Below, one piece after another: positions 4,057 to 40,276 of a stretch of DNA of 42,201 nucleotides. This stretch comes from a virus. Below the pieces are notes generated by a model, which saw only the letters and a list, made by a program, of their open reading frames with translations, searched no databases and was not told where the DNA came from. The position numbers were made by a program, and so were the translations under genes. Every line of letters starts with the position of its first letter. Positions within the stretch are counted from its first letter, which is position 1. Location of the stretch: positions 1 to 42,201 of IMG/VR virus record IMGVR_UViG_3300024259_000072; one strand, 5' to 3'.

Positions 4057-4100
4057 GATGATAATAGGAGATAATATAAATAAACTAAAAGGTGATAGAT

Positions 4101-4340: not shown

Positions 4341-4349
4341 ATAAAGATC

Positions 4350-4375: not shown

Positions 4376-4393
4376 TTTATTAATAAAGTACAT

Positions 4394-4463: not shown

Positions 4464-4481
4464 CTTTTTAATAATTAAAAA

Positions 4482-4721: not shown

Positions 4722-4789
4722 GAATATTAAAGGTTAAATAATAACGCCAAGAATCAATCGGAATTTGTCCTTATTTACAGGTAAAAAAA

Positions 4790-5008: not shown

Positions 5009-5013
5009 AATAG

Positions 5014-5625: not shown

Positions 5626-5634
5626 GTGGTATAA

Positions 5635-5895: not shown

Positions 5896-5909
5896 GAGGT
5901 ATAAATAAA

Positions 5910-6692
5910 ATGGAAGGAGAATGGTTTAGAGGAAAAACATTTGTATTTAAATTACTAAATACAACATGTCAAGAAAGAACTACTATCTGGAAAGGTTGGT
6001 CTTACAAAGATACACAAATTGTAGATGCTGAAGGAAAAGAAATGAAATTCCCTATGACAGATGGAGAATTAAGTGGAACTGACGGAGTAGTTTATCAATT
6101 TGATCAAATGAAAGCAATGGCAAATAAGAAGTTTAAGGAACTATTCCCTTACTTCAAAATGAACATTACTTTTATAAGAAGTATTGATGTAGGTGGAAAC
6201 CAATTCCAGTATGAGTTCAAGAAAAGTATTAACAGTGAACTTGAGAAGATGTGTCTAATGACACCTGGCGATGTACCTAAGGCTTGTTTCAAACAGATAT
6301 TTGATAAGGACAAACCTGGTATGCAAATGTATAAACTAGATGTTGTATCTGAAGAAGATGCAAAGAATTGGTTAGCATCACATAACGCATCATCTGACAA
6401 ACCGATTGGTCCGATACCAAAAAGAATACAGATGGGAGCAGCAACAGTTGTACAACCAACATCTACGGCTACAAGTACACCAGTTAGTCAACCAGTAGCA
6501 ACACCAACACCAAAACCTGAAGGTTTAGTATTAGATGTCTTAGAACAAAAGTTATTAACAGCAATCAAAGGCATGGGCAGTAAGTTCGAAGAGGATAGAT
6601 TTATTAAATCATTTGAACAAACATACGCTAAACAAAGTAAAACAATTGACGTTGAAAGAGTAAAGAAAATATTCAACACAATGTACAATTAG
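5910..6692 (+). CDS. Candidate ssDNA-binding or replication accessory protein
   Basis: 260 residues after GAGGT. Three parts: residues 1-165, beta-rich with many aromatics; 170-205, a flexible linker rich in Thr, Pro, Ser and Ala; 206-260, a compact helical domain. A beta domain plus flexible linker plus small C-terminal domain matches many single-stranded DNA-binding proteins, and the next gene is the AAA+ ATPase. I see no motif that proves the OB fold, so the role is inferred from layout and position. Separated from the ATPase gene by nine bases. Confidence 0.6.
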   Translation: MEGEWFRGKTFVFKLLNTTCQERTTIWKGWSYKDTQIVDAEGKEMKFPMTDGELSGTDGVVYQFDQMKAMANKKFKELFPYFKMNITFIRSIDVGGNQFQYEFKKSINSELEKMCLMTPGDVPKACFKQIFDKDKPGMQMYKLDVVSEEDAKNWLASHNASSDKPIGPIPKRIQMGAATVVQPTSTATSTPVSQPVATPTPKPEGLVLDVLEQKLLTAIKGMGSKFEEDRFIKSFEQTYAKQSKTIDVERVKKIFNTMYN

Positions 6693-6701
6693 GTGGTATA
6701 A

Positions 6702-8063: not shown

Positions 8064-8230
8064 TGACTTTATTATGTAAGTTATTTGGACATTGTTATGT
8101 GACTAGAATAAATAATCAACATATTGGAGATTACATAGAATTCGAAATACAAAGAAATGCGTTTTGTAAAAGATGTGGAAATATAGATAAAGAATATATA
8201 AAATTATTACATATAAAGGTGATAAAATGA
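8063..8230 (+). CDS. Small zinc-binding protein
   Basis: 55 residues; ATG 8063 follows AAGGAGG and overlaps the last base of the ATPase stop. C5, C11 and then CKRC at residues 35-38 form a possible metal site. It ends in ATGA overlap with the nuclease gene, so ATPase, ribbon protein and nuclease are translationally coupled. Confidence 0.65.
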   Translation: MTLLCKLFGHCYVTRINNQHIGDYIEFEIQRNAFCKRCGNIDKEYIKLLHIKVIK

Positions 8231-8853
8231 TGAACTTTGGAACAGTGTTAAGAGAACAAATAATGGCACCATCAGATCATGGGAAGGATGACGTAGAAGA
8301 AACTTATCATCCTTCTTCTTCTGGTTATTGTCTTAGACAGATGTTATTGTCAAAAATAAAGAAGAAAGAATTCACTTATGTAGATAGAGGTGGTTTGTTA
8401 ATTGGAACTATTCTCCACGAGTGGATACAAAGTAAAGTTGAAAAAGAAGGTATTATCGAGCAAAAGATTAAACTAAATGTACCTGATTCAAACCTACATT
8501 TTTTAGGGTCAGTTGATTTTTTACATAATGTAGATAAAGAACCTTACGACTTTAAAACAACATCTAATTTGTATTATGTTAAGAAGGCAGGTAAGCCAAG
8601 TGTAGAACATAAATACCAATTAAATTTATATATGGAAGCAGTAGGAGCACAAAAAGGATATATTGTATATATGGATAAAAGAAACTTACAACATATACAA
8701 TTTGGAATTAAAAGAAATCCTGCTATATTAGAAGAAATATATGCAAAAACAAAAGAAATCCATAAAGCTTATTTAGAGTATAAAGAAACAAAAATTATCA
8801 AATATGATAAATGTGGCTGTTGGTTATGTAAAAGGGAGAAGAATGAAGATTAG
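8227..8853 (+). CDS. Cas4/RecB-like PD-(D/E)XK nuclease with Fe-S cysteines
   Basis: 208 residues. Catalytic motifs in order: H64 in the helix TILHEW, D97 in GSVDF, D108-F-K110, then Q131 and Y135 in the QxxxY helix. C35 together with C196, C198 and C201 forms the one-plus-three cysteine set that holds a 4Fe-4S cluster in Cas4 and AddB. Such proteins are DNA exonucleases or endonucleases. No cas genes are near, so the role is replication or recombination, as in other archaeal viruses. Coupled by ATGA overlap to the upstream gene. Confidence 0.88.
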   Translation: MMNFGTVLREQIMAPSDHGKDDVEETYHPSSSGYCLRQMLLSKIKKKEFTYVDRGGLLIGTILHEWIQSKVEKEGIIEQKIKLNVPDSNLHFLGSVDFLHNVDKEPYDFKTTSNLYYVKKAGKPSVEHKYQLNLYMEAVGAQKGYIVYMDKRNLQHIQFGIKRNPAILEEIYAKTKEIHKAYLEYKETKIIKYDKCGCWLCKREKNED

Positions 8854-8986
8854 AAATAGCACTTCTTCCCCTTTTTTTTTGAAAACTCTTTACGTTGAGT
8901 TAGGCGTCTTATTACCTGGAAAAGAGATCAAAATACGTAGAAGTACAGGTTCAGTTTTACAAATATGTGAGGTAGATAAAAAATGA
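8843..8986 (+). CDS. Small beta-rich protein
   Basis: 47 residues. ATG 8843 follows GGGAG and overlaps the end of the nuclease gene by 11 bases. The sequence runs through a tract of ten T at about 8871-8880 that reads as Phe-Phe and could act as a terminator or slip site. Its motif order resembles the C-terminal half of the 5635 protein. Overlaps the next gene at its stop. Confidence 0.5.
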   Translation: MKIRNSTSSPFFLKTLYVELGVLLPGKEIKIRRSTGSVLQICEVDKK

Positions 8987-9081
8987 ATGATAGATGTAAA
9001 AAATGTGGTGATGAGTTAGCAGATTCAGAAGAAGATTTGTGTGCAACATGTGAACCAGATGATGATACAATGTTATATTAA
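8983..9081 (+). CDS. 32-residue zinc-ribbon microprotein
   Basis: A minimal ribbon: CKKC at residues 5-8 and CATC at 20-23, with little else besides an acidic tail. It follows GAGGT and overlaps the previous stop. One of the smallest complete-looking two-CxxC proteins in the window. Confidence 0.6.
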   Translation: MNDRCKKCGDELADSEEDLCATCEPDDDTMLY

Positions 9082-9083
9082 AA

Positions 9084-9245
9084 ATGGTAAATTCAAATAA
9101 ACCATTGGGAGTATGTAAATGCGGACTTTGTTTTAAAGTTAAAAAAGTTTCAATTTTAAATTCTACTTTAACTGTGTATGTTTGTCAAGTTTTTGAACAA
9201 GAACCTGAACGAATTGGAACATTTACTCAATTGGAAGTGTATTAA
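9084..9245 (+). CDS. Small cysteine-containing protein
   Basis: 53 residues. CKCGLC at residues 11-16 and a fourth cysteine near residue 34, followed by an acidic stretch. No strong ribosome binding site, but it lies two bases after the previous stop and its TAA overlaps the ATG of the methyltransferase gene, so coupling is likely. Confidence 0.55.
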   Translation: MVNSNKPLGVCKCGLCFKVKKVSILNSTLTVYVCQVFEQEPERIGTFTQLEVY

Positions 9246-10555
9246 TGGCAACTGAACATATATTAATACATGGAAACTGTAAGAATCCTGCACAAATACC
9301 AGATGAATCTGTGCAATTAGTTGTTACTTCTCCACCTTATTTTAATGTCATAGATTACGCTGATCAGAAAGAAGGGAATATAGGTAACACAAAAGAAGGA
9401 AAATTACCTTATGAAGGATATTTGAAAGAAATGCGTATTGTTTATGAGCAATGCTTTAGAGTATTAAAATGGGGAGGTTTCATTGTATCTAATATAGCAG
9501 ATGTTATTTCTAATACAGAAAAGTACCCATTGAGTTATGATCATTTCTATTTGTTAAGAGATATATTTGGACATAATGGTTATCAAGATACAATAGTTTG
9601 GCAAAAACCATCAGGAATGTCAAGTCAGAAAAGGTTTGGTGTATTCATTCAGAATAACTTTCCTTATTACTACAGACCAAATAATATGTATGAACCTTGT
9701 ATAATATTTGTCAAAGGTAAAAGAGAATATACAGAAAGATGTAAGCAATTTCCAATTGATTGGGAGAAGATGAAAAAGTATCAATCAGATATATGGCAAA
9801 TGCAACCAGAGACACAAGTAGTTCAAAAAGGATTACATGAAGCACCATTTCCTTTAGAACTACCAAAGACATTCATTAAATTCTTTACCTGCCCAGGGGA
9901 TTATGTATATGATCCATTTATGGGAAGTGGTACAACAATGATGGCTAGTCAAAATCTTGGTAGAAATTGTTGGGGGTGTGAGCTTGAAGATAAGCACATA
10001 GAAACAATCAAACTAAGGACTGGCTTTCTAAATGGTATGAGGCAAGGAGATTGGATAGTAAATCTTGGACAAGATAAGTTTAAAGTCATCAAAGGTCAGG
10101 TGTTGTTACCTGTTCAAACTAATGTGGAAGAATCTCTCAGTACAATCACCCCACCCACCCATGATTCTGAACCATTAGTCCTTTGTGACGAACAATTATC
10201 TGTCCAAGATCCTGTTCAATTAGGAAAAGAAATATGTGATACTTTCTTTCCAGAAACAGAGAAACCAAAATCAGATTGGAAGACAGCGTTTGGTTCTGAA
10301 CAGCCAGAAGAGAAGTTTGTAGACCCAATAGATACTTTAGATGATGATATAGTATTAGCACCATTAGAATCTGATAAAATAGCACATAAAAGAGAAAGTT
10401 ATGAACAATCAGATTCTTCTGATTGGGATTGTACAGATTGTGGAGAATCGTTTACTGTTTGTTCTCAATTTATTACAACAGAGAATGGATTAGTTGACTT
10501 TCAACAAAAGTGTAAGTTCTGTCAATCAAATAAAATAAAGAAGGTGTTCCCATGA
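9245..10555 (+). CDS. Site-specific DNA methyltransferase with C-terminal zinc ribbon
   Basis: 436 residues. Motif IV TSPPY is at 28-32 and the SAM-binding motif DPFMGSGT at 223-230, the beta-class order used by N4-cytosine and some N6-adenine methyltransferases. Residues 1-265 make up the enzyme. Residues 280-395 are an acidic, low-homology linker, and about 395-430 carry a zinc ribbon (CTDC, then CKFC). No restriction enzyme lies beside it, so it is probably an orphan that protects or marks viral DNA. The ribbon fusion could recruit it to DNA or replication proteins. Confidence 0.88.
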   Translation: MATEHILIHGNCKNPAQIPDESVQLVVTSPPYFNVIDYADQKEGNIGNTKEGKLPYEGYLKEMRIVYEQCFRVLKWGGFIVSNIADVISNTEKYPLSYDHFYLLRDIFGHNGYQDTIVWQKPSGMSSQKRFGVFIQNNFPYYYRPNNMYEPCIIFVKGKREYTERCKQFPIDWEKMKKYQSDIWQMQPETQVVQKGLHEAPFPLELPKTFIKFFTCPGDYVYDPFMGSGTTMMASQNLGRNCWGCELEDKHIETIKLRTGFLNGMRQGDWIVNLGQDKFKVIKGQVLLPVQTNVEESLSTITPPTHDSEPLVLCDEQLSVQDPVQLGKEICDTFFPETEKPKSDWKTAFGSEQPEEKFVDPIDTLDDDIVLAPLESDKIAHKRESYEQSDSSDWDCTDCGESFTVCSQFITTENGLVDFQQKCKFCQSNKIKKVFP

Positions 10556-10910: not shown

Positions 10911-11185
10911 CAGAAAAAACATTTATAGATAAATATCCAGAGTTCAAGTCAAGAATTGAATATTATGATGATGATAAAATACATCTTAAAGAATTAGAAT
11001 CAATCCTTGATAAGCATTTTATGACTAAAGAAAAAGCAGGAAGTATGACACAACTTGTAGTTGAAAAGACACTTAAAGGATATAAAAGGAAAGTCAAAGA
11101 TGCTATTAATAAAATATTTGATATTAATGATGAAGAAGATAAAGTACATAATTATATGATTAAAGAAGAATTAGAGTTGATATAA
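10907..11185 (+). CDS. Helical hypothetical protein
   Basis: 92 residues, charged and predicted mostly helical, with an acidic C-terminus. It overlaps the winged-helix gene by four bases. No cysteines and no recognised domain. Confidence 0.65.
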   Translation: MTEKTFIDKYPEFKSRIEYYDDDKIHLKELESILDKHFMTKEKAGSMTQLVVEKTLKGYKRKVKDAINKIFDINDEEDKVHNYMIKEELELI

Positions 11186-11186
11186 A

Positions 11187-11822
11187 ATGAATAATAAAAA
11201 GAAAGGATTGAAATATGCTTTAGAACCAATTTATAAATTAGGTTGGTTATTTTTAAAACAATTTCCACAATATAATGCAGGAAACAAATTAAATATTGGT
11301 GCAAGTAGATGGATAAGAAAAGGATGGATAAGAAAAGGATGGATTAATCTTGATTATTATAATAAACATTACTGCAATACATATCAAAAACACGCAGATA
11401 TAAAACATAATTTAAATACCTTTGATCCAATACCTGTTAAAGATAATTCTCTTGATAAGGTGTATAGTTCTCATTGTTTTGAACATATAATACCTAAATA
11501 TCTATTTCATAATTTTGCAGAAATATATAGGATGCTTAAACCTGGTGGGATTGTAAGAATTTTAGTTCCAGATAAAGATAAAGTAAAAGGAACAAGATTT
11601 GATTACACTAAACCAGAATCTAAAGATTTTGGAGACCATAAAACATTATTTGATTTCAAGTTTATGGAAATGTATTTAATATCTGTTGGATTTAAAGATA
11701 TAAGAAAGAGTACTGCATATGGAAGTACTGATGAAGAATTTAGAAGTAAGTATAAATTATATTCTATGGGATTTGATGGGGTACATTCTGATATATCTTT
11801 ATTCGTAGAGGCAAGAAAATGA
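11187..11822 (+). CDS. SAM-dependent methyltransferase (type 11-like)
   Basis: 211 residues. LNIGAS (about 35-40) is the motif I position; DNSLDKVYSSHCFEHI (about 90-105) matches the class I motif IV/V region, and MLKPGGIVRILVPD is the standard post-motif strand. The target cannot be read from sequence; small molecules, glycans or proteins are possible. An exact 15-base tandem duplication (about 11308-11338) repeats IRKGW right after motif I, which looks like recent slippage. Coupled to the next gene by ATGA. Confidence 0.8.
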   Translation: MNNKKKGLKYALEPIYKLGWLFLKQFPQYNAGNKLNIGASRWIRKGWIRKGWINLDYYNKHYCNTYQKHADIKHNLNTFDPIPVKDNSLDKVYSSHCFEHIIPKYLFHNFAEIYRMLKPGGIVRILVPDKDKVKGTRFDYTKPESKDFGDHKTLFDFKFMEMYLISVGFKDIRKSTAYGSTDEEFRSKYKLYSMGFDGVHSDISLFVEARK

Positions 11823-16560: not shown

Positions 16561-16863
16561 CTAATTATTTAAATAAATACTTAATACAAATGTAATTATA
16601 GTTACTAACCAACCAGCACCAACTAAATTCTTAATTAAATTATCTCTACCTTCAATTTTATCTAATCTAGATTTATTTTTCTTTACAACTGGTAAATTAT
16701 TATCTACTAATTCTTGAGAATGAATAATATGATCACTCAATTTTTGATTAGTTGTAGCTTGAATAGTGTATAGTCTAGCAGTAGCTTTAGTATTCTCTTT
16801 TAAATCTTTTTTAATCTCTTTTATATCTTCTTTTAGACCATTATCTACATATCTTGTTGCCAA
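16561..16863 (-). CDS. Coiled coil with C-terminal membrane anchor
   Basis: 100 residues, read from TTG 16863 after GAGGGGAT. Residues 8-70 are charged helix with coiled-coil spacing; 78-97 form one transmembrane segment. This layout recalls XhlA-type proteins that work with a holin in bacterial phages, but homology is not shown. It lies between the peptidase and the small membrane protein. Confidence 0.6.
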   Translation of the reverse strand: MATRYVDNGLKEDIKEIKKDLKENTKATARLYTIQATTNQKLSDHIIHSQELVDNNLPVVKKNKSRLDKIEGRDNLIKNLVGAGWLVTIITFVLSIYLNN

Positions 16864-16877
16864 TTATATCCCCTCTA

Positions 16878-17678
16878 TCAATTCATTATTGTAAAAGTAA
16901 ACATATCATACATATAATCATCAATATAATTATAAGGTAATTTACATATACCTTTATCCTTCCAATCTTTTCCCCAAGAGTTTATTATTGAATACTCTTT
17001 TGAAACATCATTATAATCAAATATTAATACTCCATGTCCTCCAAATAATCTTTCTCCTTTTACTACTTCTATTCTTCCACTATTTCTTCGAAAAGAATTA
17101 TTAATTTTTAAACCTATATTAACAGGTCTATTTTGAAGCAACATATCTTTTATTTGAGATTTAAAATATAATTTATAATAATGTTTAATTCTCCACCATT
17201 TAGCAAATGATTCTGTGAACATTCCTAAATTATCATTCATTTCTGAAGATATATAAGGACAAAGTTTCTCAGGACATATTCCAAATTGTTGTGCTATTTT
17301 CATAGAATCTCTCATAGTTTGTCCTTTATTATCTGGAAAGTAACCATTCAAATGTCTTACTTTATTATAATGAAATCTTTCTGATAGTTCAATTCCTTTC
17401 TTATTTGTATCTGATAAATCATATGCTATTTCTAAACATGTTGCTATTGAATGAGAAGCACAACTATTCCAAGAACCTTGATCTTTAACATATTTATAAG
17501 GGTCTATAGGTAATGAATAATTCTTAGGTTTTTTGTCAAATAATCCAAGTAGATTTGCATTATAATCTCTTTCATCTTCTTCTGATTGTTGTAATCCACT
17601 AAGTTGTTTATTAAGTTTGCCACCATCTCTTTCTTTATCCATTAATATACTAACTAAAAATTCTATTATCTTTCTCAT
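16878..17678 (-). CDS. Papain-family (C1) cysteine peptidase, likely lysin
   Basis: 266 residues from ATG after AGGTGATTGAA; a frame from 17687 would begin inside that site. Full catalytic set: Q67 in DQGSWNSC, nucleophile C73, H215 in GGHGV, N233 in INSWGKDW. Residues 1-13 are hydrophobic, perhaps a short membrane-surface helix, and 15-50 resemble a propeptide. At the end of the tail module and beside two membrane proteins, it is a good candidate for cleaving the host S-layer or cell-wall protein at lysis, or for entry as a tail component. A peptidase rather than a muramidase fits an archaeal envelope. Confidence 0.82.
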   Translation of the reverse strand: MRKIIEFLVSILMDKERDGGKLNKQLSGLQQSEEDERDYNANLLGLFDKKPKNYSLPIDPYKYVKDQGSWNSCASHSIATCLEIAYDLSDTNKKGIELSERFHYNKVRHLNGYFPDNKGQTMRDSMKIAQQFGICPEKLCPYISSEMNDNLGMFTESFAKWWRIKHYYKLYFKSQIKDMLLQNRPVNIGLKINNSFRRNSGRIEVVKGERLFGGHGVLIFDYNDVSKEYSIINSWGKDWKDKGICKLPYNYIDDYMYDMFTFTIMN

Positions 17679-17687
17679 TTCAATCAC

Positions 17688-23580: not shown

Positions 23581-23946
23581 CTAATTCACCTTTTTTACAC
23601 CAAATCCCATTGGTGACTTTCTTTCTACTGGTTCTTCTTTTTTAGTTGATATTTGTTCTGATATTGTACTTATATTATTTTCTGCTGCTGATAACCTATC
23701 AAATAACATTTGATTTTTACCATCTGCTTCTGCTATATCTAATAGTATTCTAAGTCCCATGTGATATATAAGTTCTTCGTATTGACTTATTATCTCACCA
23801 GTATCTCTGTTCTTTTTGACTCTTACATTTCTAGCATTCAATTTACAAAAATTAGTAAATCTTTGATATGTCTCTTCAGGACAACCAGCTATTGTAAATA
23901 CTCTTGTCGTAATGTTCTTTATTCTGTTACTTAGATTATTGTCCAT
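23581..23946 (-). CDS. Hypothetical protein with C-terminal coiled coil
   Basis: 121 residues after GAGGGAG. The N-terminal half (VFTIAGCPEETYQRF) has a strand followed by helices that recall ribbon-helix-helix proteins; residues 78-105 form a coiled coil; the tail is basic. Overlaps the upstream methyltransferase gene by 11 bases. It may be a tail assembly factor or a regulator. Confidence 0.55.
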   Translation of the reverse strand: MDNNLSNRIKNITTRVFTIAGCPEETYQRFTNFCKLNARNVRVKKNRDTGEIISQYEELIYHMGLRILLDIAEADGKNQMLFDRLSAAENNISTISEQISTKKEEPVERKSPMGFGVKKVN

Positions 23947-25036
23947 CTTTTTCTCCCTCTATTTTGACTAAAAATATATTCCAGTCTCTTTCTTCTATTG
24001 TTCTATTCATTCTTATTATTTTGACATTACTACTAATATTGTCAATATAATCTGCTACTGTGTAGAAATCCATTCTACTACTTATTGGATTTTTATCAAG
24101 TAAGTTCTCTCCTTCGTTAAAGAAGAAAAATAACTTTCCATCTTTTTTAGTCCTAGCTAACATTATTGATATATCAGTATTTATATTATTACTTTTATTC
24201 ATAGGAATTATACATATTGTTACATCAGACCAATTATTTAAAGAGTCATTTACTTTAACTTCACATCCTTTATCAATAATATCTAAATAAAGTATTTGAC
24301 TAGATTTTCCATGTATGTATACTTTATTATTTGAATTAATATACCTCATTAAGTACTCATGTAAATAATTAGGTTCTTCAAATACAGATTTACCTTTCAT
24401 TCCTTTCATTATCTTAATTGCCCATAAATTAGGTTTAAGATGTTCAAAGAATTTATTCTTTTTCAATATTACAAAAGTACTATCTTCTCCAAGTATGTCT
24501 TTGAATAGTTTGTGTATATCAATATAATTAAAGAATTGTTTGTGGTCTGCGTCATATAAATTTCTACCTATTGGAGTAGTTATAAATAATTGTCCATTTG
24601 GTTTCAATACTCTATATAATTCTTTAATAGCTTTCTCTGGTTCTTCCATATGTTCTATTACTTCTGAACAAGTTACATAATCACAACTATCATCTCTTAT
24701 ACTAACTAAATTATTTAAATCTGCCGTATGACAATATTGTAATGCTTTCTTATGGAAGTGTCTAGCTTTATCATTTCCTGTTTCTGAAAAGTTATCTACA
24801 CCTACTACATTAAACCCTGCTTCTTTTAATATATGTACAAAGAAACCTTTTCCACAACCAGCATCTAAAATATTTAATTTATCTTTAGGTCTCTGATCTT
24901 TATTAAGTTGTTCTAACATCCATTTAAACCTATAGCTTAAAGGTTGTTTAACTCGCTCCTCAAATGATGCAGCTTCGTTAATATAGTTACTGTTATATAC
25001 TGTATGTATATTATTATCTTTATTGTCAATATTCAT
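23936..25036 (-). CDS. SAM-dependent methyltransferase inside the tail module
   Basis: 366 residues. Class I motif I is LDAGCGKGFF at 57-66; acidic loop VGVDNF follows, then CSEVIEHMEEP and RVLKPNGQLFITTP at the expected distances. Residues 230-366 form a second alpha/beta domain without a motif I can name. It is coupled by ATGA to the glycosyltransferase upstream, so the two probably modify a glycan or a glycosylated surface or virion protein. Confidence 0.78.
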   Translation of the reverse strand: MNIDNKDNNIHTVYNSNYINEAASFEERVKQPLSYRFKWMLEQLNKDQRPKDKLNILDAGCGKGFFVHILKEAGFNVVGVDNFSETGNDKARHFHKKALQYCHTADLNNLVSIRDDSCDYVTCSEVIEHMEEPEKAIKELYRVLKPNGQLFITTPIGRNLYDADHKQFFNYIDIHKLFKDILGEDSTFVILKKNKFFEHLKPNLWAIKIMKGMKGKSVFEEPNYLHEYLMRYINSNNKVYIHGKSSQILYLDIIDKGCEVKVNDSLNNWSDVTICIIPMNKSNNINTDISIMLARTKKDGKLFFFFNEGENLLDKNPISSRMDFYTVADYIDNISSNVKIIRMNRTIEERDWNIFLVKIEGEKDGQ

Positions 25037-25998
25037 TCTTTATCACTCTCTTCTAATGCTTCCATATATCTCTCTTTAGAGTTAGTATAGTTAAAGAACT
25101 CTACTTTCTCTCTTGCTTCCTTTATGACACTCTCTCTAAACTTCTCATCTGTAATTAATTTTTTTATTGATGCAGTCAGACTTTTAACATCGTAAGGATT
25201 ATGTGATGTTTGTGGGAAACAATGTTTCATTGAAAATACTCTTTCACTACCTGCCGTTGGAACACCTATAGCTGCTGTATCAACACTTGTTCTACCATAT
25301 GTTTGGCACGTACTATTTTCAACAACTACTTGATTTTTAGCAAAGTCAGTTATGTAATCATAATAACCTTTACCCATATCATATTCATCAAACATAGAAT
25401 CAACAAATCTTTTATTCTCATCTACTCCTTGTCTGTAACCATATAATTTACTAGATAGTTTTCTGTCCCATTCTTTAAGTCTTTTAGCAATAGTTCCATT
25501 TGTAAAACTCTTACCTTCCCACCAATGATACATAAATCCAACTCTATGTACATTTTGATCAACACCAATCTTTGATATATATTTGATATTAGTTGGGTGT
25601 GGTATCCATTTAGTTTTATCAATCATGTGTGCTTGTTGCATAGGGTGTGTAGCAAATAACATATCTGCTTGTTTCTGTACATGTTCCCAATATCTAGGGT
25701 GTAATTGCCAACTTCCCCAAGCTTCAACAACATAATCATTATTTAATACTAATTTAGTTGAACTTGACTTACCAAGTTTATCTCTTATTTCATGTACGTA
25801 ATTCATATCTACTGGTGCAAGATTTACTTGAACTACATCATATTTCTCAAAGTCTTCTACTGTATCATAAGCTTTCATATCTCCTTTAAAAACTTGTAAC
25901 CAGTTATAAAGTCCACCTCTAGCAGGTGCTTCATTTAGTACGTTCCCCATCAAGCTACTTATCTTGGAAGGACACATTAAGTATTTTAATTTAGTCAT
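25033..25998 (-). CDS. Glycosyltransferase (GT-B, family 4/1-like)
   Basis: 321 residues from ATG after GAGTGATTAAG. The C-terminal half has the GT-B donor-site pattern: a helix with CQTYGRTSVDTAA, then GVPTAGSERVF, followed by a closing helical segment (SLTASIKKLITDEKF). The N-terminal half is a Rossmann-like acceptor domain. Acceptor and sugar are unknown. Placed in the tail operon next to a methyltransferase, it may decorate virion or host-surface protein. Confidence 0.72.
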   Translation of the reverse strand: MTKLKYLMCPSKISSLMGNVLNEAPARGGLYNWLQVFKGDMKAYDTVEDFEKYDVVQVNLAPVDMNYVHEIRDKLGKSSSTKLVLNNDYVVEAWGSWQLHPRYWEHVQKQADMLFATHPMQQAHMIDKTKWIPHPTNIKYISKIGVDQNVHRVGFMYHWWEGKSFTNGTIAKRLKEWDRKLSSKLYGYRQGVDENKRFVDSMFDEYDMGKGYYDYITDFAKNQVVVENSTCQTYGRTSVDTAAIGVPTAGSERVFSMKHCFPQTSHNPYDVKSLTASIKKLITDEKFRESVIKEAREKVEFFNYTNSKERYMEALEESDKE

Positions 25999-26003
25999 CT
26001 TAA

Positions 26004-26204
26004 TCACTCAAATGCTTTCTTAGCTTTATCTAACTTTGTAGTAACTTCTTGTAGTTTGTCTTCAAGTTTTTGGACTTTCTGTATTAACATAAGTCTTTCA
26101 TTTTGAAGTTTCGAAATTAATTCATCTCTTTCATAAACTTCTTTGTTTACTCCATCTATCATTGCTTTTAATTCCTTTGATATTTCATCTATCTTTTCTT
26201 TCAT
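26004..26204 (-). CDS. Short coiled-coil protein
   Basis: 66 residues from the ATG seven bases after GAGGT; a frame extends to ATG 26222, but that would overlap the upstream gene. Nearly the whole length is a charged leucine-heptad coiled coil. It lies between a frameshifted small tail-region gene and the glycosyltransferase. Function unknown. Confidence 0.6.
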   Translation of the reverse strand: MKEKIDEISKELKAMIDGVNKEVYERDELISKLQNERLMLIQKVQKLEDKLQEVTTKLDKAKKAFE

Positions 26205-26214: not shown

Positions 26215-26494
26215 TCAATCATCTTTTAATAATATATCAAAAGTTGTATTTAGACTTACACTATTTGCACTCCCTATTGCACTAACTCTAATATCTGTCT
26301 TTGCAGGTATCTTTCCATGTAGTGGTGCAGGAATTCTTATAAAACTTGAACCTTCATTATTAACACCGAAAAAAAGGAATACCTGCATTAACATCTAAAT
26401 GAGTTTTAGTTTCAATTTTAGACACAGTAACATTATCTAATGCTATCTGATTTGCCTTTTGGTTTGTATCATATCCTGCTAATATAAATGACAT
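26215..26494 (-). CDS. Small beta-rich structural protein with frameshift at T7
   Basis: Read from ATG 26494 after GGAG. The first frame gives MSFILAGYD and ends in stop codons soon after a run of seven T near 26362-26368. Skipping one T (a +1 shift) restores a clean frame that continues GVNNEGSSF to the TGA at 26215-26217, about 92 residues in all. The downstream half is beta-rich and clearly coding. Either the T run is a sequencing or replication indel, or it is a programmed slip. The product would be a minor tail or decoration protein. Confidence 0.55.
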
Positions 26495-27703: not shown

Positions 27704-28249
27704 TTACTTAATATTTCTGAAAAAGACTGAACCTTTTAGTCCTTCTCCTAATATAAAACTATTCTTCCATATATCAACTAATGCTCTTCTTATATCATTC
27801 TGGTGTGATGTTCCTATTTCTAAAGCGTGTTTCATTCTTAGTATCGCATCTGTCATAAAATTCATAGGTCTTGAACCTGGATGTTTTATAAAAGGATAAG
27901 TTGTATTACCTTTCCAACCCATTCTAAGTTTTAAAGGTATTCTCATATAATTCATATTTATTCTTGAAGGTGTACCAAATTCAACTTCAGATGAATAATG
28001 TGCCGTTGAACCAATTACTATATATGAATTATTCCTACCTCTACTTATTGTTCTTATACCTCTTTCAAGTTTACCTGTGTTAGGTTTAAATCTAACTCTA
28101 TTTCTAACGTTTTGTTTTGCATATTCAATTAATTTTTTAGATAATCTCAAATTAGTCATACCTGCTATTCTAGGAACAGTATGACTCATTTTTCTCAATC
28201 CTTTCATAGTTATATTTAATCCTTTAACTTCAATTGTAAAAGTTGGCAT
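27704..28249 (-). CDS. HK97 gp10-like tail completion protein
   Basis: 181 residues after AGGAGAGG. It has the VEFGTPS motif (about residue 90) typical of the gp10 neck family, an N-terminal helical part with many basic residues and a C-terminal helix. It joins the connector to the tail. Overlaps the upstream gene by one base. Confidence 0.65.
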   Translation of the reverse strand: MPTFTIEVKGLNITMKGLRKMSHTVPRIAGMTNLRLSKKLIEYAKQNVRNRVRFKPNTGKLERGIRTISRGRNNSYIVIGSTAHYSSEVEFGTPSRINMNYMRIPLKLRMGWKGNTTYPFIKHPGSRPMNFMTDAILRMKHALEIGTSHQNDIRRALVDIWKNSFILGEGLKGSVFFRNIK

Positions 28250-28759: not shown

Positions 28760-29359
28760 TTAATTTGAAACGTATAATTTCGGTCTTATGTTTTTAAAGT
28801 TATATCCTTTTCTTAATAATGCTACATCTGCTAGTTCGTAAAACTTATCTCTCATTGAAATAAGCCTATCCTTACCTAAAGCCTGTGGTTGTCCACCTGC
28901 TAGTCCGTGATCAATAACGTAAGCGTCTGTCATATACCTTATTGGTCTTTTAAAACCAGCTGTAGTTCCAGTTATATCTTTGACGTCTTCTTCAGCTCTT
29001 CCTATTAATCTTGATACTATTGCTGATGTTGTACCATCAATCATATTCCAAGCTTTACCAACATCATCTCTTATATCACTATAAGTTACTGAACTCGTTG
29101 GGGTATAAGTCCCTACTGCTAAACCTATTGAAAATTCAAAAGGTGGACTCTCTAAACCTAACGAAGCTACGTTCATTAAAGCTACATAAGCATCAGTTGT
29201 TGAGGTTGTAAAATCGTAATAATACACACCTGAAGAGCTAAGCTCTGTCATAATGGCTTCATTTATAATAACTGTAGATGCGTCATTATATATACTTACC
29301 TTAACGTCAGTTAAGCCTGTTCTTCTTCTAGCTGAAAAATAAATTCTCTTTGTTGTCAT
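28760..29359 (-). CDS. Head-tail connector protein with N-terminal beta domain
   Basis: 199 residues after AGGTGGTATAA. Residues 1-85 form an Ig-like beta domain; 95-199 are helical with the pattern of gp6/gp15-type adaptors (IRDDVGKAWNM ... SRLIGRAEEDV). The extra beta domain is unusual for a connector. Position after head genes and before neck genes supports the role. Confidence 0.6.
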   Translation of the reverse strand: MTTKRIYFSARRRTGLTDVKVSIYNDASTVIINEAIMTELSSSGVYYYDFTTSTTDAYVALMNVASLGLESPPFEFSIGLAVGTYTPTSSVTYSDIRDDVGKAWNMIDGTTSAIVSRLIGRAEEDVKDITGTTAGFKRPIRYMTDAYVIDHGLAGGQPQALGKDRLISMRDKFYELADVALLRKGYNFKNIRPKLYVSN

Positions 29360-29368: not shown

Positions 29369-30928
29369 CTATATTAATCCGCACTGTTGCCATACTTCCT
29401 TATCATAATAAGCCCAACTAGTTATATTACTTACATCTGACATATCATAGTTAGCTGTTGCATTTGCTATATCTGATATATCTTGTGAAGTAATTGCACC
29501 TGATGAAGTTAAAGTTCTTGTTACGTATCCCCATATATCTGCTGATGTTGTTCCACTTGTATTATATAAACCAGTTCCATGATCAACTGTTATATTTCTT
29601 GTAATATTATCTATTGAATCACTCATTAATCCTAACCATTCAGAAGATGTATCTTGTGCACTTGTATCTATTAATATCGCATTTGTTCTTGTGTCACAAG
29701 CATCTATTTGAGATTCAGTAGTTGTTGTCAAAGTTGTAATTCCTTGTGTAAGGTTTGTATCATAACATATACCTGATAATGTTGCCTCTAAAGATAATGC
29801 TGAAACATCTGATTTGAATTGATCTTCATTACTTCCTGCTATGAAATAAGTATATATTTCTGCTTCAGTTGGTGAACTTCCACCTGCTCCTGTTAAATAA
29901 TCTCCTTCTCCATGTGAAAGATTTATTCTTGTATCTATTGCTGGAACTAAAGTGTTTGAAATTTCATTAATACCATCTGTAGCTAGTTCTGATGAACCTA
30001 TTGAATTCGCTGCTAGTTCAGTTGAACCTATTGCGTTATCTGCTATTATAGATGATGTTATTGCATCGTTAGCTAAACCATATCCTGTCTTATCATTATT
30101 TGTAGTTAATGCTGAACAAGTCCCTACTGTCGCAGTCGTTAATTCAGTTCCATCTAAACATTCAGTATCTACTTGTGCTTGAGTTGCAAATCCTGTTGCT
30201 GTAGCCCATTGAGCATCTCCATATGTTCTAAGAGATTCATTTAAACTATTAAATAATGTCTTTGATGTACTTCCTGTAGCCCAATTTGAATCACCATATC
30301 CTCTTAATGATTCATTCAAATTATTTATATCTGTTTTAGTTGTGAATCCTGTAGCAGTCACCCAATTACCCTGATTAGTTTGAAGTTCTCCTGTATCTGC
30401 AAGAATTGATGCAATCTCTGTATCTAAATAATCATCTAATGTTGTTGAAGTATCAACAAGAATTGCATCTACATTCGCATCTATCGTATCAATCTTTCCA
30501 TCTAAAGTAGTTCCTGTATCAGTAAGAATAGAATCTACATTACTGTCTACTACTGCAAGTGCTGCATCTAATGTTGTACCTGTATCTGTTAAAATACTTG
30601 CAATGTCATCTTCTATCCCTTGTTGCCACACTGGGATTGAATAATCAACTGCTCCTGTTGGACAATCTATATAACAAGTATAATAATCATCTGTTTCAGA
30701 AAAAGTATATCTAAACTTTCCTGTTGCTACATTTGTCATAGCTGCACTAGCAACATCATTTGTATTTGCACTGTCATAGCAATCTATATTTGCTGCACTT
30801 CCTAATAACTCACCACTTGTTGCATTATTACAAGTAAGATGGAATATATCTCCTGTGCTTAATTGAAATGCACTTACAAATGGCAATATTAGTGCCATCA
30901 TTGTCAATAATATTATTTTTTTATTCAT
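29369..30928 (-). CDS. Exported repeat protein in the virion gene cluster
   Basis: 519 residues after GGGAGTGAAA. The N-terminus MNKKIILLTMMALILPFVSA is a clear Sec signal peptide with cleavage likely after SA. Cysteines around 33-90 may form disulfides. About residues 108-180 hold at least three repeats of ILxDTxTTLD, then a NLNESLRxYGDxxW pair, as in trimeric fibre or coiled-coil stalks. Exported proteins are not expected in a capsid built in the cytoplasm, so this is either a host-surface protein made by the virus or a fibre with unusual assembly. It is paired with the exported LamG-like protein upstream. Confidence 0.7.
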   Translation of the reverse strand: MNKKIILLTMMALILPFVSAFQLSTGDIFHLTCNNATSGELLGSAANIDCYDSANTNDVASAAMTNVATGKFRYTFSETDDYYTCYIDCPTGAVDYSIPVWQQGIEDDIASILTDTGTTLDAALAVVDSNVDSILTDTGTTLDGKIDTIDANVDAILVDTSTTLDDYLDTEIASILADTGELQTNQGNWVTATGFTTKTDINNLNESLRGYGDSNWATGSTSKTLFNSLNESLRTYGDAQWATATGFATQAQVDTECLDGTELTTATVGTCSALTTNNDKTGYGLANDAITSSIIADNAIGSTELAANSIGSSELATDGINEISNTLVPAIDTRINLSHGEGDYLTGAGGSSPTEAEIYTYFIAGSNEDQFKSDVSALSLEATLSGICYDTNLTQGITTLTTTTESQIDACDTRTNAILIDTSAQDTSSEWLGLMSDSIDNITRNITVDHGTGLYNTSGTTSADIWGYVTRTLTSSGAITSQDISDIANATANYDMSDVSNITSWAYYDKEVWQQCGLI

Positions 30929-30934
30929 TGTATT

Positions 30935-32209
30935 TCACTCCCAATAACTTTTCATATTTTGAATTATAACTTGAACTGCTGTTTTTAAAATTGTTGTTGG
31001 AGATGCAGGTGGTTCTCCTCCTCCTATCCCAAAACAATCATTATAAGCATCTTGTCTTGCACTCTCAGTTAAAGTATTTTCAACGTGAACTGTAAGACAA
31101 TCTAATGAGCCTTCATACTCCTGTGAGTTATCTTGTCCAATTCTAAAAAATGAAGCAGAACCATCCATCTGTGAACCTGCGGCAGGTTCATCTCTCATTT
31201 GATTTGTTACATTATTATATACATAACAACTTGTACCATTATATCCTGCTGTTATATAATGCCAAGTATCATCAGTTATGAAAGTACTATATTCATACCA
31301 ACCAATATTACATTCAGTAGTTCCACCTTTCATTCTTAATTCTATTCTTCCAGTTTTTAATTTTACTCTGAATTGGTCTCCATCTACAGAAACTACTACA
31401 TATTCTCCTGCTTCTGCATTATAATGTTTCATAGCGAAACTTACTTCAAATTCATCTATAGTGTCCCAGAGTCCATAATTAGCGGTATTAAAAAATGATA
31501 CAGAACTAAAATTACCTGCATATCCTTCTCCACTTGCACCTGTTACATAATTATAATCTGTACCATCAACTATTGTTCCATTGTGGTTAGATGGATTTCC
31601 AGCACTATCATATAATTGCTGAGTAATGTCATTTTCTTCAAAATCGTATTGATAATTTCTACTTCCATTATTCCAAGTACTTATCATTGGGTCGATTTTA
31701 TCTTTAGAACTGATGAATATTAATTCATTCTTTTTCATTGTGATATTATAATTAGATGCTCTACTATAATTTTCTTGAACATAATCAATACCATCTATTG
31801 TAATTGTTTCATTACTAAGAAGATTATAATCTGGTTGAAAATAGAATTGTTTATCTCCAATTAAATAATGCACTGAACTTAATTGTACTATGTCTTTTGC
31901 AGATACTTTATATTCCCAATGGTCTTTTTTCCATACACCTTTAGTGAAATCTATTGAGAATTTGATTCTATCTCCATCAAAGGAATCTATTATAATACTG
32001 TCTTTTGGAAACTTTAAATATTTAGTATTCTGATAAAAACTATCAGTTCCTTCTTTTTTATAATCAATAAATTTAGAATTAATCAACTTATTCTCTTCTG
32101 TCTTATCTATAGATTTTGCATTGATTGATATATTTTCAGTACAAGAATCTAATGCAATTACTAATAATGTAGAAAATAATAAAAAAAATAGAATAAGTTT
32201 AGATTTCAA
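30935..32209 (-). CDS. Exported protein with LamG/concanavalin-like domain
   Basis: 424 residues from TTG 32209, five bases after AAGGTGA; ATG 32236 gives nine more residues but a longer overlap. Residues 1-22 are a signal peptide or anchor. About 30-175 are beta-rich; 185-385 match the concanavalin-like jelly roll (YDFEENDITQ ..., WHYITAGYNG, FRIGQDNS). A short C-terminal helix follows. Such domains bind glycans. Together with the next gene it forms an exported pair inside the head module. Confidence 0.7.
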   Translation of the reverse strand: MKSKLILFFLLFSTLLVIALDSCTENISINAKSIDKTEENKLINSKFIDYKKEGTDSFYQNTKYLKFPKDSIIIDSFDGDRIKFSIDFTKGVWKKDHWEYKVSAKDIVQLSSVHYLIGDKQFYFQPDYNLLSNETITIDGIDYVQENYSRASNYNITMKKNELIFISSKDKIDPMISTWNNGSRNYQYDFEENDITQQLYDSAGNPSNHNGTIVDGTDYNYVTGASGEGYAGNFSSVSFFNTANYGLWDTIDEFEVSFAMKHYNAEAGEYVVVSVDGDQFRVKLKTGRIELRMKGGTTECNIGWYEYSTFITDDTWHYITAGYNGTSCYVYNNVTNQMRDEPAAGSQMDGSASFFRIGQDNSQEYEGSLDCLTVHVENTLTESARQDAYNDCFGIGGGEPPASPTTILKTAVQVIIQNMKSYWE

Positions 32210-33690: not shown

Positions 33691-34545
33691 TTAAGTAGTT
33701 GTTATTTCTGATACAGCTGTTGATTGGATATACCTTACACCTAATCTTTGTGTAACTGAAGCAAATCCTGCGTCTCTTGCTGCGTCAAAGTATTTCTCAA
33801 TTGTTACTGGTCTTTTTTCAACTACCATAAATGCATGATCTGCATCTATAACGTATGCCAATACTGATGAAATACTATTGCTTACTATAACTTTCATTTC
33901 CCAGATTTTTCCAATCAGTCTTTTACTTGGGTCATTAATACCTGACTCAGCTGCTGATGTAAAAATATCTAAGTTCCTTAAGTCATTAGCTATTTCGACT
34001 CCACATAAGAAATGTGTAGCTACGTGATTAGCTGCTTCTAGATATTGAATTGCTCTTGTAATATCTGAAGGAGGTATTGTTGCATTTGAATTAGCGACAC
34101 TCTGACTTGATGCTGTATCAGCTGCATCTAATTGTGCTACAATTAAACTTTCCTCGTTCTTAGCTAGTGCGTAACCTGCAGTCTCAACATTCATATCCAT
34201 TGAGTCCCACATGCCATCTTCAAGAACTTCTTTAACAATCATTATTCTGCATCCATACTTAGCAGGTCTGACGTTAAATCCTGAATATTGTTCAACACTT
34301 AGTGGTATTTCTGCACCAGGTGCTACTCTATTAACTACAAGTTTTTCTGGTAGGTCTAATGCAAAGTCAATACTTGAACCTGCAAAATTAGTAACAATTC
34401 TTGCTGCTAATGCTCTTAAAACTAACTTCCTTCTAACAGCTCTTATTAAAGTTCCGAACAGTGTTCTTGGAATTAACCTTGATGCTGTTGTACTTCCTGC
34501 TGTAGCGGATGTTGAATCTTTATAATCTGTGTGTAATATGTTCAT
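33691..34545 (-). CDS. Major capsid protein, HK97 fold
   Basis: 284 residues after GGTGATGAAGA. No scaffold part is fused. Features of the fold: a long basic helix (LIRAVRRKLVLRALAARIV), the E-loop and P-domain strands (VRPAKYGCRIMIVKEVLEDG), an A-domain with ITRAIQYLEAANHVA ... FLCGVEIANDL, and the C-terminal IEKYFDAARDAG strand. Position after protease/scaffold and decoration genes fits exactly. Confidence 0.82.
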   Translation of the reverse strand: MNILHTDYKDSTSATAGSTTASRLIPRTLFGTLIRAVRRKLVLRALAARIVTNFAGSSIDFALDLPEKLVVNRVAPGAEIPLSVEQYSGFNVRPAKYGCRIMIVKEVLEDGMWDSMDMNVETAGYALAKNEESLIVAQLDAADTASSQSVANSNATIPPSDITRAIQYLEAANHVATHFLCGVEIANDLRNLDIFTSAAESGINDPSKRLIGKIWEMKVIVSNSISSVLAYVIDADHAFMVVEKRPVTIEKYFDAARDAGFASVTQRLGVRYIQSTAVSEITTT

Positions 34546-36405: not shown

Positions 36406-37821
36406 TTACTTTTTCACCTGTGGTTTCTTTTTTGAACCTTTATCATCCATTGGCTGTTTAACAAATGATTTATCAGCTCTTTCTCTTTTACCTGCTTTAC
36501 TTGTTTTAGTTGGGTCATTTGGATTATCTTTAATTTTATCTGGTCCAAGTGCTTGTGAACCAAAAGGAAGTTTCATTGGATTTGCATCTGTATTTTCTAC
36601 ATCTTCATCATGAAACTTTTCTGGTAATAATGAGTTAGCTTTTTTATTCGTTAGTATTCCATCAGTTGTAAGTCCTCTTATTAATTCAACTTCTGTTTCA
36701 AATTGTCTCTCTTCTACGTCTTCAAATTCTAAATGATCTTTTCTATCATTAGTCATTGGTTTTATTATTTGATCATCGAATTGCATAGTGAATTCTTTTT
36801 GGACAGCTCTTATATGTCTACCACTAGCCCTTAAAGCAACCTCTGGGTCTGAACCTGAACCTTTACTTGTTATATCTGTTGCAAGGTTTACATCGTGAGT
36901 TTGTAGTCCAATTAATATATTTCTATCAACATGTTCTAATATTGGTTGAAAGTTCATTCCTTTCTGTCCAAAATCAAGAACACTCAAATCAACTAAATGA
37001 TTTGTTGTATATTCTGTATCTGCATATATATCTTCTAATTTACCTTGAACGTCTTGAAGATCTTCAGTATTCGCAGGCATCAAATCAGAACCTACTTTGG
37101 CATGTATAATTGGATTAAGATATCTTTCAATTGTTATTCTTAAATCACTTTCAAGTTTCTGTTTATGTTCAAGTAAAGTTAAACCTGAATGAATAATAGC
37201 ATGTCCATGCTTCTCTGAATTATTTGTGTTCCATTTGAAGTGGAATATGTCTGATATTTCTCCAACCTTCTCAACATTTGCACCACGCATCTCTTTATGT
37301 CTTTGGTCTATTTTTCCCCATACAAGTTTCTTACGATTAGAAAGAGTTTGAACATACGCTAATACTTCACCAGTTGCCAATCTAACTATATCCATAGTTT
37401 TCATATCTATTAATTTTAAATCGACTGGGTTTTTTAATTTATCTAATCCTTCTAATCTATTACTCTCTAATGGTATCTTTTCACCAATAACTCCACCATT
37501 CTTTAAAAAAGGTTTAACCATTCTTCTAAGGTGGATAAATAGATTTATTTCATCTCCCCATTCATTTAGGACTTCATTATTAGTTCCATCGAATTTATAA
37601 TCTTGCACTATTTGTTCAACCTGCGCATCTATAGAACCAGCAACTAAAGGGAAATTATTATAAGCATTGTCATATTGTGTTTGTAATGGGATAGATACTT
37701 TATCTTCATCTGTTTCACCAGTACTAGAACTTCCATATCTTAGAATGAAAGATTTGCCCATTTTTTGGCGTTGTTCTTCCTCTTTTCCGATTTTGTTTAG
37801 ATTTATACCTAAGAATCCCAT
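36406..37821 (-). CDS. Portal protein
   Basis: 471 residues after GAGGTTATTAC. It has the layout of phage portals: a basic N-terminus, AGSIDAQVEQIVQ helix, beta-rich wing with FLKNGGVIGEKI, LIDMKTMDIVR and FHFKWN, a central helix with ALRASGRHIRAVQKEF, then a charged, disordered, lysine-rich C-terminus. It follows the terminase in the usual order and has a promoter of its own. Confidence 0.8.
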   Translation of the reverse strand: MGFLGINLNKIGKEEEQRQKMGKSFILRYGSSSTGETDEDKVSIPLQTQYDNAYNNFPLVAGSIDAQVEQIVQDYKFDGTNNEVLNEWGDEINLFIHLRRMVKPFLKNGGVIGEKIPLESNRLEGLDKLKNPVDLKLIDMKTMDIVRLATGEVLAYVQTLSNRKKLVWGKIDQRHKEMRGANVEKVGEISDIFHFKWNTNNSEKHGHAIIHSGLTLLEHKQKLESDLRITIERYLNPIIHAKVGSDLMPANTEDLQDVQGKLEDIYADTEYTTNHLVDLSVLDFGQKGMNFQPILEHVDRNILIGLQTHDVNLATDITSKGSGSDPEVALRASGRHIRAVQKEFTMQFDDQIIKPMTNDRKDHLEFEDVEERQFETEVELIRGLTTDGILTNKKANSLLPEKFHDEDVENTDANPMKLPFGSQALGPDKIKDNPNDPTKTSKAGKRERADKSFVKQPMDDKGSKKKPQVKK

Positions 37822-37935: not shown

Positions 37936-39498
37936 TCAAATAATGAAACGACTTCTTTTGTTACCAGAACCCCTTATGACAGCTGGCCTCATAGTTCCAA
38001 AACCCCTTGCTCCAAATGCTGCTAACATTAAAGCAGTGATCAAATCATCATGTTCACCTATTCCTTCATATTTTACTGTATGTTTCTCTCTATCGAACTT
38101 CATACCATAAGAGTGAAGTTCCTTTCTTAATACTTCAGTAGTCATATGAGTTAATATATCAGTTTTACTTTTGTTTATAAAGAATGTTCTTTCACTTAAT
38201 GGTTTAGGTTCTTTTATGTCATTAGTGAATTTGTAGAAGTTAGTTTCAAATAAAGAACGCAGATTTGCAATACAATCATATTTAGTATGTGAGTGCTGTT
38301 GATTTGTAAATCTTAAAGGCATAAAATGAAATCCTGGTGCCATATGTTTTATATCTTCTATGAACGCTGCTCCAAATGAACCTTCATCTGGAATTATCCT
38401 TGATGGTTTCCAATGTTGTATAGTTTGTGCTAGTTTTAGTTTTTGATTATGATAAGATAGATTCTTCCAACGATTTGCAAATACAAGTCTTAAATGATTA
38501 TGAGTATTTCTTTCTAATACAACAACTGTTGTCCAATCTGCCCCTGATTGTGCACTCATAGCGAAATCCATTCCCATGTAATATTGATTTCTATAATCAG
38601 GTTCATCTAAAAAGTTTTGTGCATAATCAAATGATAGTTCTATTAATTCATTTGGATATAATTGATCACCTGCTGACATAGGGTTACATAACCATTCAGT
38701 TGACCAATCTAATGTTGAATATGTATCATATATTTTAATCTTACCATTAATTGGAGCTCTACTAAAAATTAACCATTTACCATTCTTGAATTTGTATTCT
38801 CTGTCTGGATAACGTATATCCCACAAAGTTCTACCATCTTTGTATTCTGTATTAACTGCATATACATCTGAGTAATATTCTTCTTTCTTTTTAAGAACGT
38901 GAATTAAATCTATTTCTGATTTTGGAGTACCAATACAGAATATCTTACCTTTCTTTGAATGTACTGTTGGTGTTACAGCTTTTGATAATACATCATGATC
39001 TCTATATTCACCAATCTCATCACATCCAACCCAATCAACATGTTCACCACGAATATTATCATTGTAAGCTTTTGCCACTATTCTAGATCCATTTTTAAGA
39101 ACAATCTCTTCTTGATTCCAAATAGCATCTTTACCAGTTGGTACTGCTGTCCTCAACAATTCATTAGTCATCATTTCATCTTTTATTTTCCTAAGGTTTT
39201 TCTTACATTGCTTTAAAGCATTAGCAACAAGTATACCTTCCCAACCTGGATTAATAAATGCCATAGCTAAAGGATAATTAACTAATAATGATTGAGTCTT
39301 TGTAGAACTTCTAAAAGCTGATATATTTATCCTATCATAAGTTTCTGCTAATCTAATCCAATCTTCTGCATAATCAAATAGTTTCCAACCATAAGGAGAA
39401 AGAACTATATTGTTTATAAAGAATATTGGATTCTTAAGAAGCTCTTGAGTTTTATCTCCGTACTTTTCTAATAAATTATCTAATATTTGAAAACTCAT
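37936..39498 (-). CDS. terL: Terminase large subunit
   Basis: 520 residues. The Walker A position reads AFRSSTKT at 61-68, deviating from the usual GK by having T before K. Walker B is VDWVGCDE (D160, E161); the coupling motif is FCIGTP near 187-192. The nuclease domain has D311 in MGMDFAMS, D371 in IIPDEGS and D484/D485 in GEHDDLITAL. This motor packages DNA and cuts it to length. It is overlapped by the small-subunit gene upstream. Confidence 0.88.
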   Translation of the reverse strand: MSFQILDNLLEKYGDKTQELLKNPIFFINNIVLSPYGWKLFDYAEDWIRLAETYDRINISAFRSSTKTQSLLVNYPLAMAFINPGWEGILVANALKQCKKNLRKIKDEMMTNELLRTAVPTGKDAIWNQEEIVLKNGSRIVAKAYNDNIRGEHVDWVGCDEIGEYRDHDVLSKAVTPTVHSKKGKIFCIGTPKSEIDLIHVLKKKEEYYSDVYAVNTEYKDGRTLWDIRYPDREYKFKNGKWLIFSRAPINGKIKIYDTYSTLDWSTEWLCNPMSAGDQLYPNELIELSFDYAQNFLDEPDYRNQYYMGMDFAMSAQSGADWTTVVVLERNTHNHLRLVFANRWKNLSYHNQKLKLAQTIQHWKPSRIIPDEGSFGAAFIEDIKHMAPGFHFMPLRFTNQQHSHTKYDCIANLRSLFETNFYKFTNDIKEPKPLSERTFFINKSKTDILTHMTTEVLRKELHSYGMKFDREKHTVKYEGIGEHDDLITALMLAAFGARGFGTMRPAVIRGSGNKRSRFII

Positions 39499-39977
39499 TT
39501 TACTGTAAAGAAATCCAAAGCATCATTTTTATCTACTTCTTTCTTCTCCTCCTTAGGTTTTTCTATTTTAGCTTTTACTTCTTTAGCATTTATAAAATCT
39601 GAAAATGATTTATCACCTGTTTTAAGTTGTTGAACTATAGATGATCTTTTAGTCATAAGAAGTTCTTTCATGTTATTTCTAAATTGATTCTCTAGTTGTA
39701 ATATTAATTTAGATGCTTCATTTACTCTAACTGTTTGTGTTCCTTGTCTATTTTCCCACATATAAGTATCTCCATGATCTTGAATAACTTTTTGTAATCT
39801 CTTTATTCTTATGAAATCATTCATAGTTGTATCAAGTAACATAGCATCACTTAATTTATCTATATTATGTTCTTTTTTAAGTTCATCTATAAACACTTTA
39901 AAAAGATTCTTCTCATCATCAGATAAAGTATGATTAGTATATTCAGTTAATTGTTTACTATATTTTGGTGCTCCCAT
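39495..39977 (-). CDS. Putative terminase small subunit
   Basis: 160 residues after GAGGTAACTAAAG. Helical with a basic middle and a lysine/glutamate-rich C-terminal tail, overlapping the large subunit by four bases. No clear helix-turn-helix can be named; the call rests on position and size. It would recognise the packaging site. Confidence 0.6.
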   Translation of the reverse strand: MGAPKYSKQLTEYTNHTLSDDEKNLFKVFIDELKKEHNIDKLSDAMLLDTTMNDFIRIKRLQKVIQDHGDTYMWENRQGTQTVRVNEASKLILQLENQFRNNMKELLMTKRSSIVQQLKTGDKSFSDFINAKEVKAKIEKPKEEKKEVDKNDALDFFTVK

Positions 39978-40276
39978 TCTTTAGTTACCTCTTCATTTGT
40001 ACAATTATCTAAATAAGTATATTGTATTCTTTCTATTGAATCATTCCAAGATTCTACTTTTATCTTCATAGTCATATTCTTACAATTTACTTTATACTTA
40101 TATATTGCACCACCACAACCATTTCCAGAATTAGTTTCAAAGTAATCATCTTCCCAAAGATCTATACAAGTACAATTCTGTTCATAATGATTAGTATAAT
40201 TAATATATCTAGTTGCACATATATCAGTGCAAGAACTAAGTATTAGTATTGTCAAAAAGAATATTAGATGTTTCAT
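39947..40276 (-). CDS. Putative lipoprotein
   Basis: 109 residues from ATG after GGAAGTGAAC; the longer frame from 40285 begins inside that site. Residues 1-16 form a short signal with LILSSC, a fair lipobox with the cysteine at about residue 16. The rest has eight more cysteines in pairs (CTC, CGG). An exported or membrane-anchored protein encoded right before the packaging genes is odd; a role in exclusion of other viruses is possible. Overlaps the terminase small subunit by 31 bases. Confidence 0.6.
   Translation of the reverse strand: MKHLIFFLTILILSSCTDICATRYINYTNHYEQNCTCIDLWEDDYFETNSGNGCGGAIYKYKVNCKNMTMKIKVESWNDSIERIQYTYLDNCTNEEVTKEWEHQNIVNN

Follow-up and report, generated by a model that had tools for sequence, protein, structure and literature searches.

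It has been assumed that the whole virion of a tailed phage is built in the cytoplasm, an assumption made testable by a recurrent group of virion-type fibres with export signals that are tied to a change in a neck protein. Among the phage proteins described as leaving the cytoplasm, T5 Llp shields progeny from useless adsorption (PMC9586334), and lambda Lom is encoded in a structural module (PMC12309495). At the neck itself, phage R4C (PDB 8GTD) carries an Ig-like adaptor domain that lies exposed on the capsid exterior, at the portal vertex, and was assigned by its authors to local stability and capsid contact (PMC10276861). The locus described here lies in a 42.2-kb virus record, analysed over its full 42,201 nucleotides and referred to as the window.

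Two predicted exported proteins in the late gene block

The late block of the window lies on the minus strand and runs in the order terminase, portal, cement, major capsid protein, small genes, two exported-protein genes, presumed adaptor and neck/tail genes. The features relevant to the following sections are:

37936-39498, minus strand: TerL
36406-37821, minus strand: portal (phrog_9232)
33691-34545, minus strand: major capsid protein, MCP (phrog_267, E 5e-10; PF25209)
30935-32209, minus strand: 424-aa LamG-like protein, predicted to be exported, with a TTG start and a Shine-Dalgarno sequence
32153-32209, minus strand: predicted signal peptide of the LamG-like protein, MKSKLILFFLLFSTLLVIA
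31085-31414, minus strand: LamG-like (Laminin_G_3) stretch (PF13385, E 1.9e-4, below the gathering score)
29369-30928, minus strand: 519-aa fibre, predicted to be exported, with a signal peptide, a Cys-rich N-terminal domain and phage-fibre repeats
30869-30928, minus strand: predicted signal peptide of the fibre, MNKKIILLTMMALILPFVSA
30608-30868, minus strand: N-terminal domain of the fibre, residues 21-107, with four Cys
29960-30607, minus strand: fibre repeats 'ILTDTGTTLD', 'TNNDKTGYGL' and 'AIGSTELA', common to many phage fibres
28760-29359, minus strand: presumed head-tail adaptor with a beta-rich N-domain (about residues 1-85) and a helical C-terminal part, without a signal peptide
27704-28249, minus strand: neck/tail-completion protein (phrog_5, E 9e-9)

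In map order, the exported pair follows the major capsid gene and precedes the neck genes. An earlier note on this DNA had located it inside the head module, between minor head genes and the connector; the location stands, with the MCP found on one flank and the presumed adaptor and neck genes on the other.

Signal peptides were predicted with a strict rule comprising a basic n-region, an uncharged 10-residue core and an A/V-x-A site. Only the two genes 29369-30928 and 30935-32209, out of 33 late genes, pass this rule, while shuffled versions of the two proteins passed 11 and 6 times in 20,000, respectively. In the fibre, MNKKIILLTMMALILPFVSA is followed by FQ, with cleavage predicted between VSA and FQ. 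In the LamG-like protein, MKSKLILFFLLFSTLLVIA is followed by LD, with cleavage predicted between VIA and LD. The best start of the latter is the TTG at 32209, as had been proposed, since it is preceded by the Shine-Dalgarno sequence AAGGTGAA; starting instead at the ATG at 32236 would create a 38-base overlap with the upstream gene and leave the signal in place. With n-, h- and c-regions and a small-residue cleavage site in place, both proteins are predicted by rule to be Sec-exported. The signals are probably cleaved, leaving the mature proteins outside the cytoplasm. Thus, the two Sec signals reported among the head genes by the earlier note are confirmed, and the conflict it pointed out between export and cytoplasmic head assembly holds up.

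One reading of this conflict is that the signals stay uncleaved and act as anchors; the fibres would be held in the membrane, where particles would be tethered or completed before the cell lyses. Both hydrophobic segments would be long enough for this purpose, but all 13 fibre signals compared end in a small-residue cleavage-type site with A as the last residue, and an anchored fibre would point away from the cytoplasmic particles. Membrane anchoring is therefore considered very improbable.

The mature window fibre contains nine Cys (1.8%, versus 0.74% in the other late genes). Its fibre-like repeats, noticed earlier from the sequence, are real: they match a phage contig (L005) with a BLAST E of 3e-11 and the fibre of an Omnitrophota contig (L029) with 64% over 36 aa. 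Judged by this repeat homology, the protein is a member of the phage fibre repeat family. The lectin-like character of its neighbour could be substantiated only as a likeness. The LamG-like stretch scores 22.0 bits against the PF13385 cut-off of 27.6 and thus does not reach the gathering threshold, so that "LamG-like" is a fair description and a secure LamG assignment is not.

The protein encoded at 28760-29359 was named adaptor by its position and helix pattern, with no profile match behind the name. It is the top window protein for the fibre N-domain profile, a weak match (E 0.0068) that was equalled by 4 of 2000 shuffles, while the profile of the 'IPES' Ig-like adaptor N-domain did not match it. 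A single-sequence model of poor quality (pLDDT 40) shows strands followed by four helices. The N-domain is thus assigned tentatively; it may play the same part as the extra domain of the cassette adaptors discussed below.

Other genes and possible host of the window

Directly upstream of the terminase genes, a small lipoprotein-like ORF (39947-40276, minus strand; MKHLIFFLTILILSSC) is a candidate Llp-like exclusion protein. Among the tail genes, a methyltransferase gene and a neighbouring 324-aa ORF without a Pfam match are inserted (23936-26007, minus strand). A short structural-type ORF (26223-26494, minus strand) resumes in another frame past a seven-T run at about 26375, either through a sequencing error or through a frameshift. 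At the end of the tail module, a papain-like protease (16878-17687, minus strand; PF00112, E 1e-13) adjoins a small ORF with a hydrophobic stretch at its C-terminus (16561-16863, minus strand), and the two could form a lysis pair acting on a protein envelope.

A DNA methylase (9245-10555, plus strand) finds its best phage matches in the archaeal viruses STSV1/2, and the Shine-Dalgarno motif GGTG precedes 16 of the 54 window genes. Together, these features hint that the host may be an archaeon. Omnitrophota are not proposed as host, because the window TerL gives only weak matches there.

Recurrence of the exported fibre cassette

Searches for close relatives of the window gave none. IMG/VR scans with its MCP, TerL and LamG-like protein as queries gave no matches, nor did a genome scan with the LamG-like protein. 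A genome scan with the window fibre led to the Omnitrophota contig L029, which encodes a GpA-type terminase, a Zn ribbon, a signal-peptide (SP) protein, an SP-LamG protein (PF13385, E 8e-12), an SP-fibre, a gpW-type adaptor and a lambda-type portal. The term exported fibre cassette is used here for SP-LamG, SP-fibre and adaptor in this order inside the head block; in L029 the three genes lie between TerL and portal.

Searches based on L029 revealed the same block in the genomes G072 (L050) and G208 (L118), block variants in G152 (L119) and L059, and the uncultured phages L057, L058, L060 and L061. The order SP-LamG, SP-fibre, adaptor is found again in L050, L057, L060, L061 and L118. Related pairs of SP-fibre and adaptor were seen at two other loci, one siphophage-like (L051, L145) and one podophage-like (L056, L088). 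The SP-fibre loci L005 and L063 are additional, unrelated cases. Hence the comparison with relatives suggested in the earlier note yielded none that are close, but an arrangement that recurs in Omnitrophota prophages and uncultured phages. The mature fibre is under strong constraint, with a dN/dS of 0.05-0.07.

The window shows the same gene order, with the adaptor named from position, and its likeness to the cassette is one of repeats, signal peptides and gene order. Profile and BLAST searches detected no homology of the window fibre N-domain and LamG-like protein to cassette proteins, the N-domain profiles of other cassettes leaving the fibre N-domain unmatched, and the window adaptor failed the profile tests against the cassette families. 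The window is therefore treated as an analogue and not as a proven member; it may be a very distant member of the exported fibre cassette, or at least a close analogue.

At the sensitivity used, annotated phage records contained no full-length match. Three partial matches were repeat matches in uncultured phages, whose annotated fibres carry no signals. Of two later IMG/VR scans, one contributed a near-duplicate and the other nothing. A literature search, with most subscription journals outside its coverage, returned no report of such an arrangement, and no virion proteome was found for any cassette phage.

Other runs of exported proteins were observed in these searches. In the 111-kb phage contig L063, an SP-fibre with repeats of the tail-fibre kind (phrog_892) comes after an SP protein of 1238 aa (3827-8549). 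In L005, an SP-fibre shares a run of exported proteins (4197-10381) with two ORFs of lipoprotein-like appearance and two presumed beta-helix proteins. In the G128 prophage, a 269-aa protein that by eye resembles a T7-type tail-fibre N-terminus precedes two small signal-peptide proteins (L144, 8840-10768), an arrangement that may again separate an unexported anchor from an exported tip.

Origin of the fibre signal

The fibre of L003 lacks a signal peptide, and its gene also precedes neck genes. Its residue 1 aligns to residue 22 of the L029 fibre with 72% identity; the L029 fibre thus consists of 21 signal residues followed by the N-domain with which L003 starts. Across about 50 fibre loci whose start is intact, a signal was found only in L005, L063 and L088, the last being identical to L056. 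L003 and L109 had been flagged as signal carriers by a crude rule and were rejected as false calls. As the L003 fibre aligns from its first residue, the signal appears to have been added before a virion-type fibre, and the fibre signal is most simply regarded as a derived addition.

Link with an Ig-like adaptor domain

In the Omnitrophota phage family, the adaptor carries an extra Ig-like N-domain at eight loci, all with the exported cassette, versus a bare gpW of about 70 residues at ten inspected loci, all without it. In these ten loci, the Zn-ribbon gene is directly followed by gpW or portal. A profile search for the N-domain over 384 Omnitrophota genomes identified adaptors in G001, G072, G128, G137, G152 and G208, each of them preceded by an SP-fibre. 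L057-L061 were found via the fibre, and four of the six genomes were already in the query profile; therefore, only G152 and G208 count as independent positives, and the ten gpW-only loci count as independent negatives. TerL and portal trees indicate that the cassette state changed at least two times, the exact count being unsure owing to long branches.

The same N-domain is fused to adaptors of the gpW, Ad1 (L051) and tail-tubular (L056) types, and in L051 and L056 the adaptor again stands directly behind the SP-fibre. It was absent from all loci with SP-less fibres that were scanned. In the L060 adaptor model, the Ig-like sandwich is confident (pLDDT about 90), the gpW part less so. An hhalign comparison of fibre N-domains with adaptor N-domains returned nothing.

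Two further arrangements were noticed in these phages. In L059, the Ig-like adaptor domain also occurs as a separate copy, encoded between SP-fibre and adaptor (10961-11260). Between portal and cement, the head block of the cassette-free Omnitrophota phages L121, L126 and L129 contains five conserved inserted genes, among them a 377-399-aa ORF that is glycosyltransferase-like by eye.

Possible roles of the exported pair

An exported fibre that meets the Ig-like domain outside the cytoplasm is the simplest reading of an export signal coupled to a change in a neck protein. The tentatively preferred explanation is that the fibre works with the virion neck, docking probably at or after lysis. Both proteins would be synthesised late, pass the Sec system with cleavage of the signal and fold after leaving the cytoplasm, the fibre being a virion-fibre-type protein with a gained signal peptide. 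Particles would be assembled in the cytoplasm with the Ig-like domain exposed on the adaptor ring. Lysis would bring them together with the fibre, exported beforehand and accompanied by the LamG lectin, and the fibre would then attach to the neck and serve in adhesion. We infer the physical docking and the lysis step. The generalisation that some tailed phages export neck fibres and lectins by Sec, mature them in the envelope and add them at lysis via an Ig-like dock is more doubtful.

The main rival is cell-surface decoration, which is nearly as likely as neck docking. Exported fibre and lectin would attach to the host envelope, either externally or inside the periplasm, and mask receptors, keeping released progeny off debris and excluding rival phages, as T5 Llp does by another route. 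This reading is in line with the predicted export of every cassette partner, the typical surface-binding nature of LamG and beta-helix proteins, the lipoprotein-like character of some partners (L051, 1051 aa; L005, 376 aa) and the precedents of T5 Llp (PMC9586334) and lambda Lom (PMC12309495). Yet it leaves the domain gain of a virion adaptor alongside the cassette unexplained, and the second, unexported fibre with a shared tip that a decoy would predict was not found in the G208 prophage or the window. Among the three roles suggested by the earlier note, namely coating of the infected cell, attachment of progeny and a virion finished at the membrane, a virion link close to the third is therefore favoured over pure cell coating by the co-occurrence of exported fibre and adaptor domain. 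"Finished at the membrane" is better read as a possible completion beyond the cytoplasm, during lysis or following it.

Coincident insertion is an unlikely third reading: the cassette would be a moron, and exported morons are common, travelling by chance with the Ig-like domain, with the exported proteins serving host or lysogen and the domain merely steadying the neck, as proposed for R4C. R4C indeed has the domain without the fibre, and Ig-like domains are widespread in phage structural proteins (PMC10276861). Chance association is difficult to reconcile with an N-domain found on three unrelated adaptor types with an SP-fibre ahead every time. The cassette, so far seen in uncultured phages only, points to an unrecognised route for adhesion parts or progeny protection.

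Comparison with known systems

R4C resembles the cassette phages in its Ig-like N-domain on a gpW-type adaptor ahead of the portal gene. However, no exported fibre is present upstream, and its Ig part has no sequence match to that of the cassette adaptors. The Ig-like domain can therefore have another role. Lambda Lom shares with the cassette proteins its export and its location in a structural module, but is a beta-barrel outer-membrane protein encoded in the tail module and not a fibre homologue. T5 Llp is likewise an exported phage protein, but a small lipoprotein that is made early and encoded outside the head module. A signal peptide, present in the cassette fibres, is missing from nearly all of the 'TNNDKTGY'-type repeat fibres (L003 and about 50 IMG/VR loci). 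These nevertheless share the repeats with the cassette fibres and the whole N-domain with the L029 group and, in the cases checked (L003, L064), are encoded beside neck or head genes.
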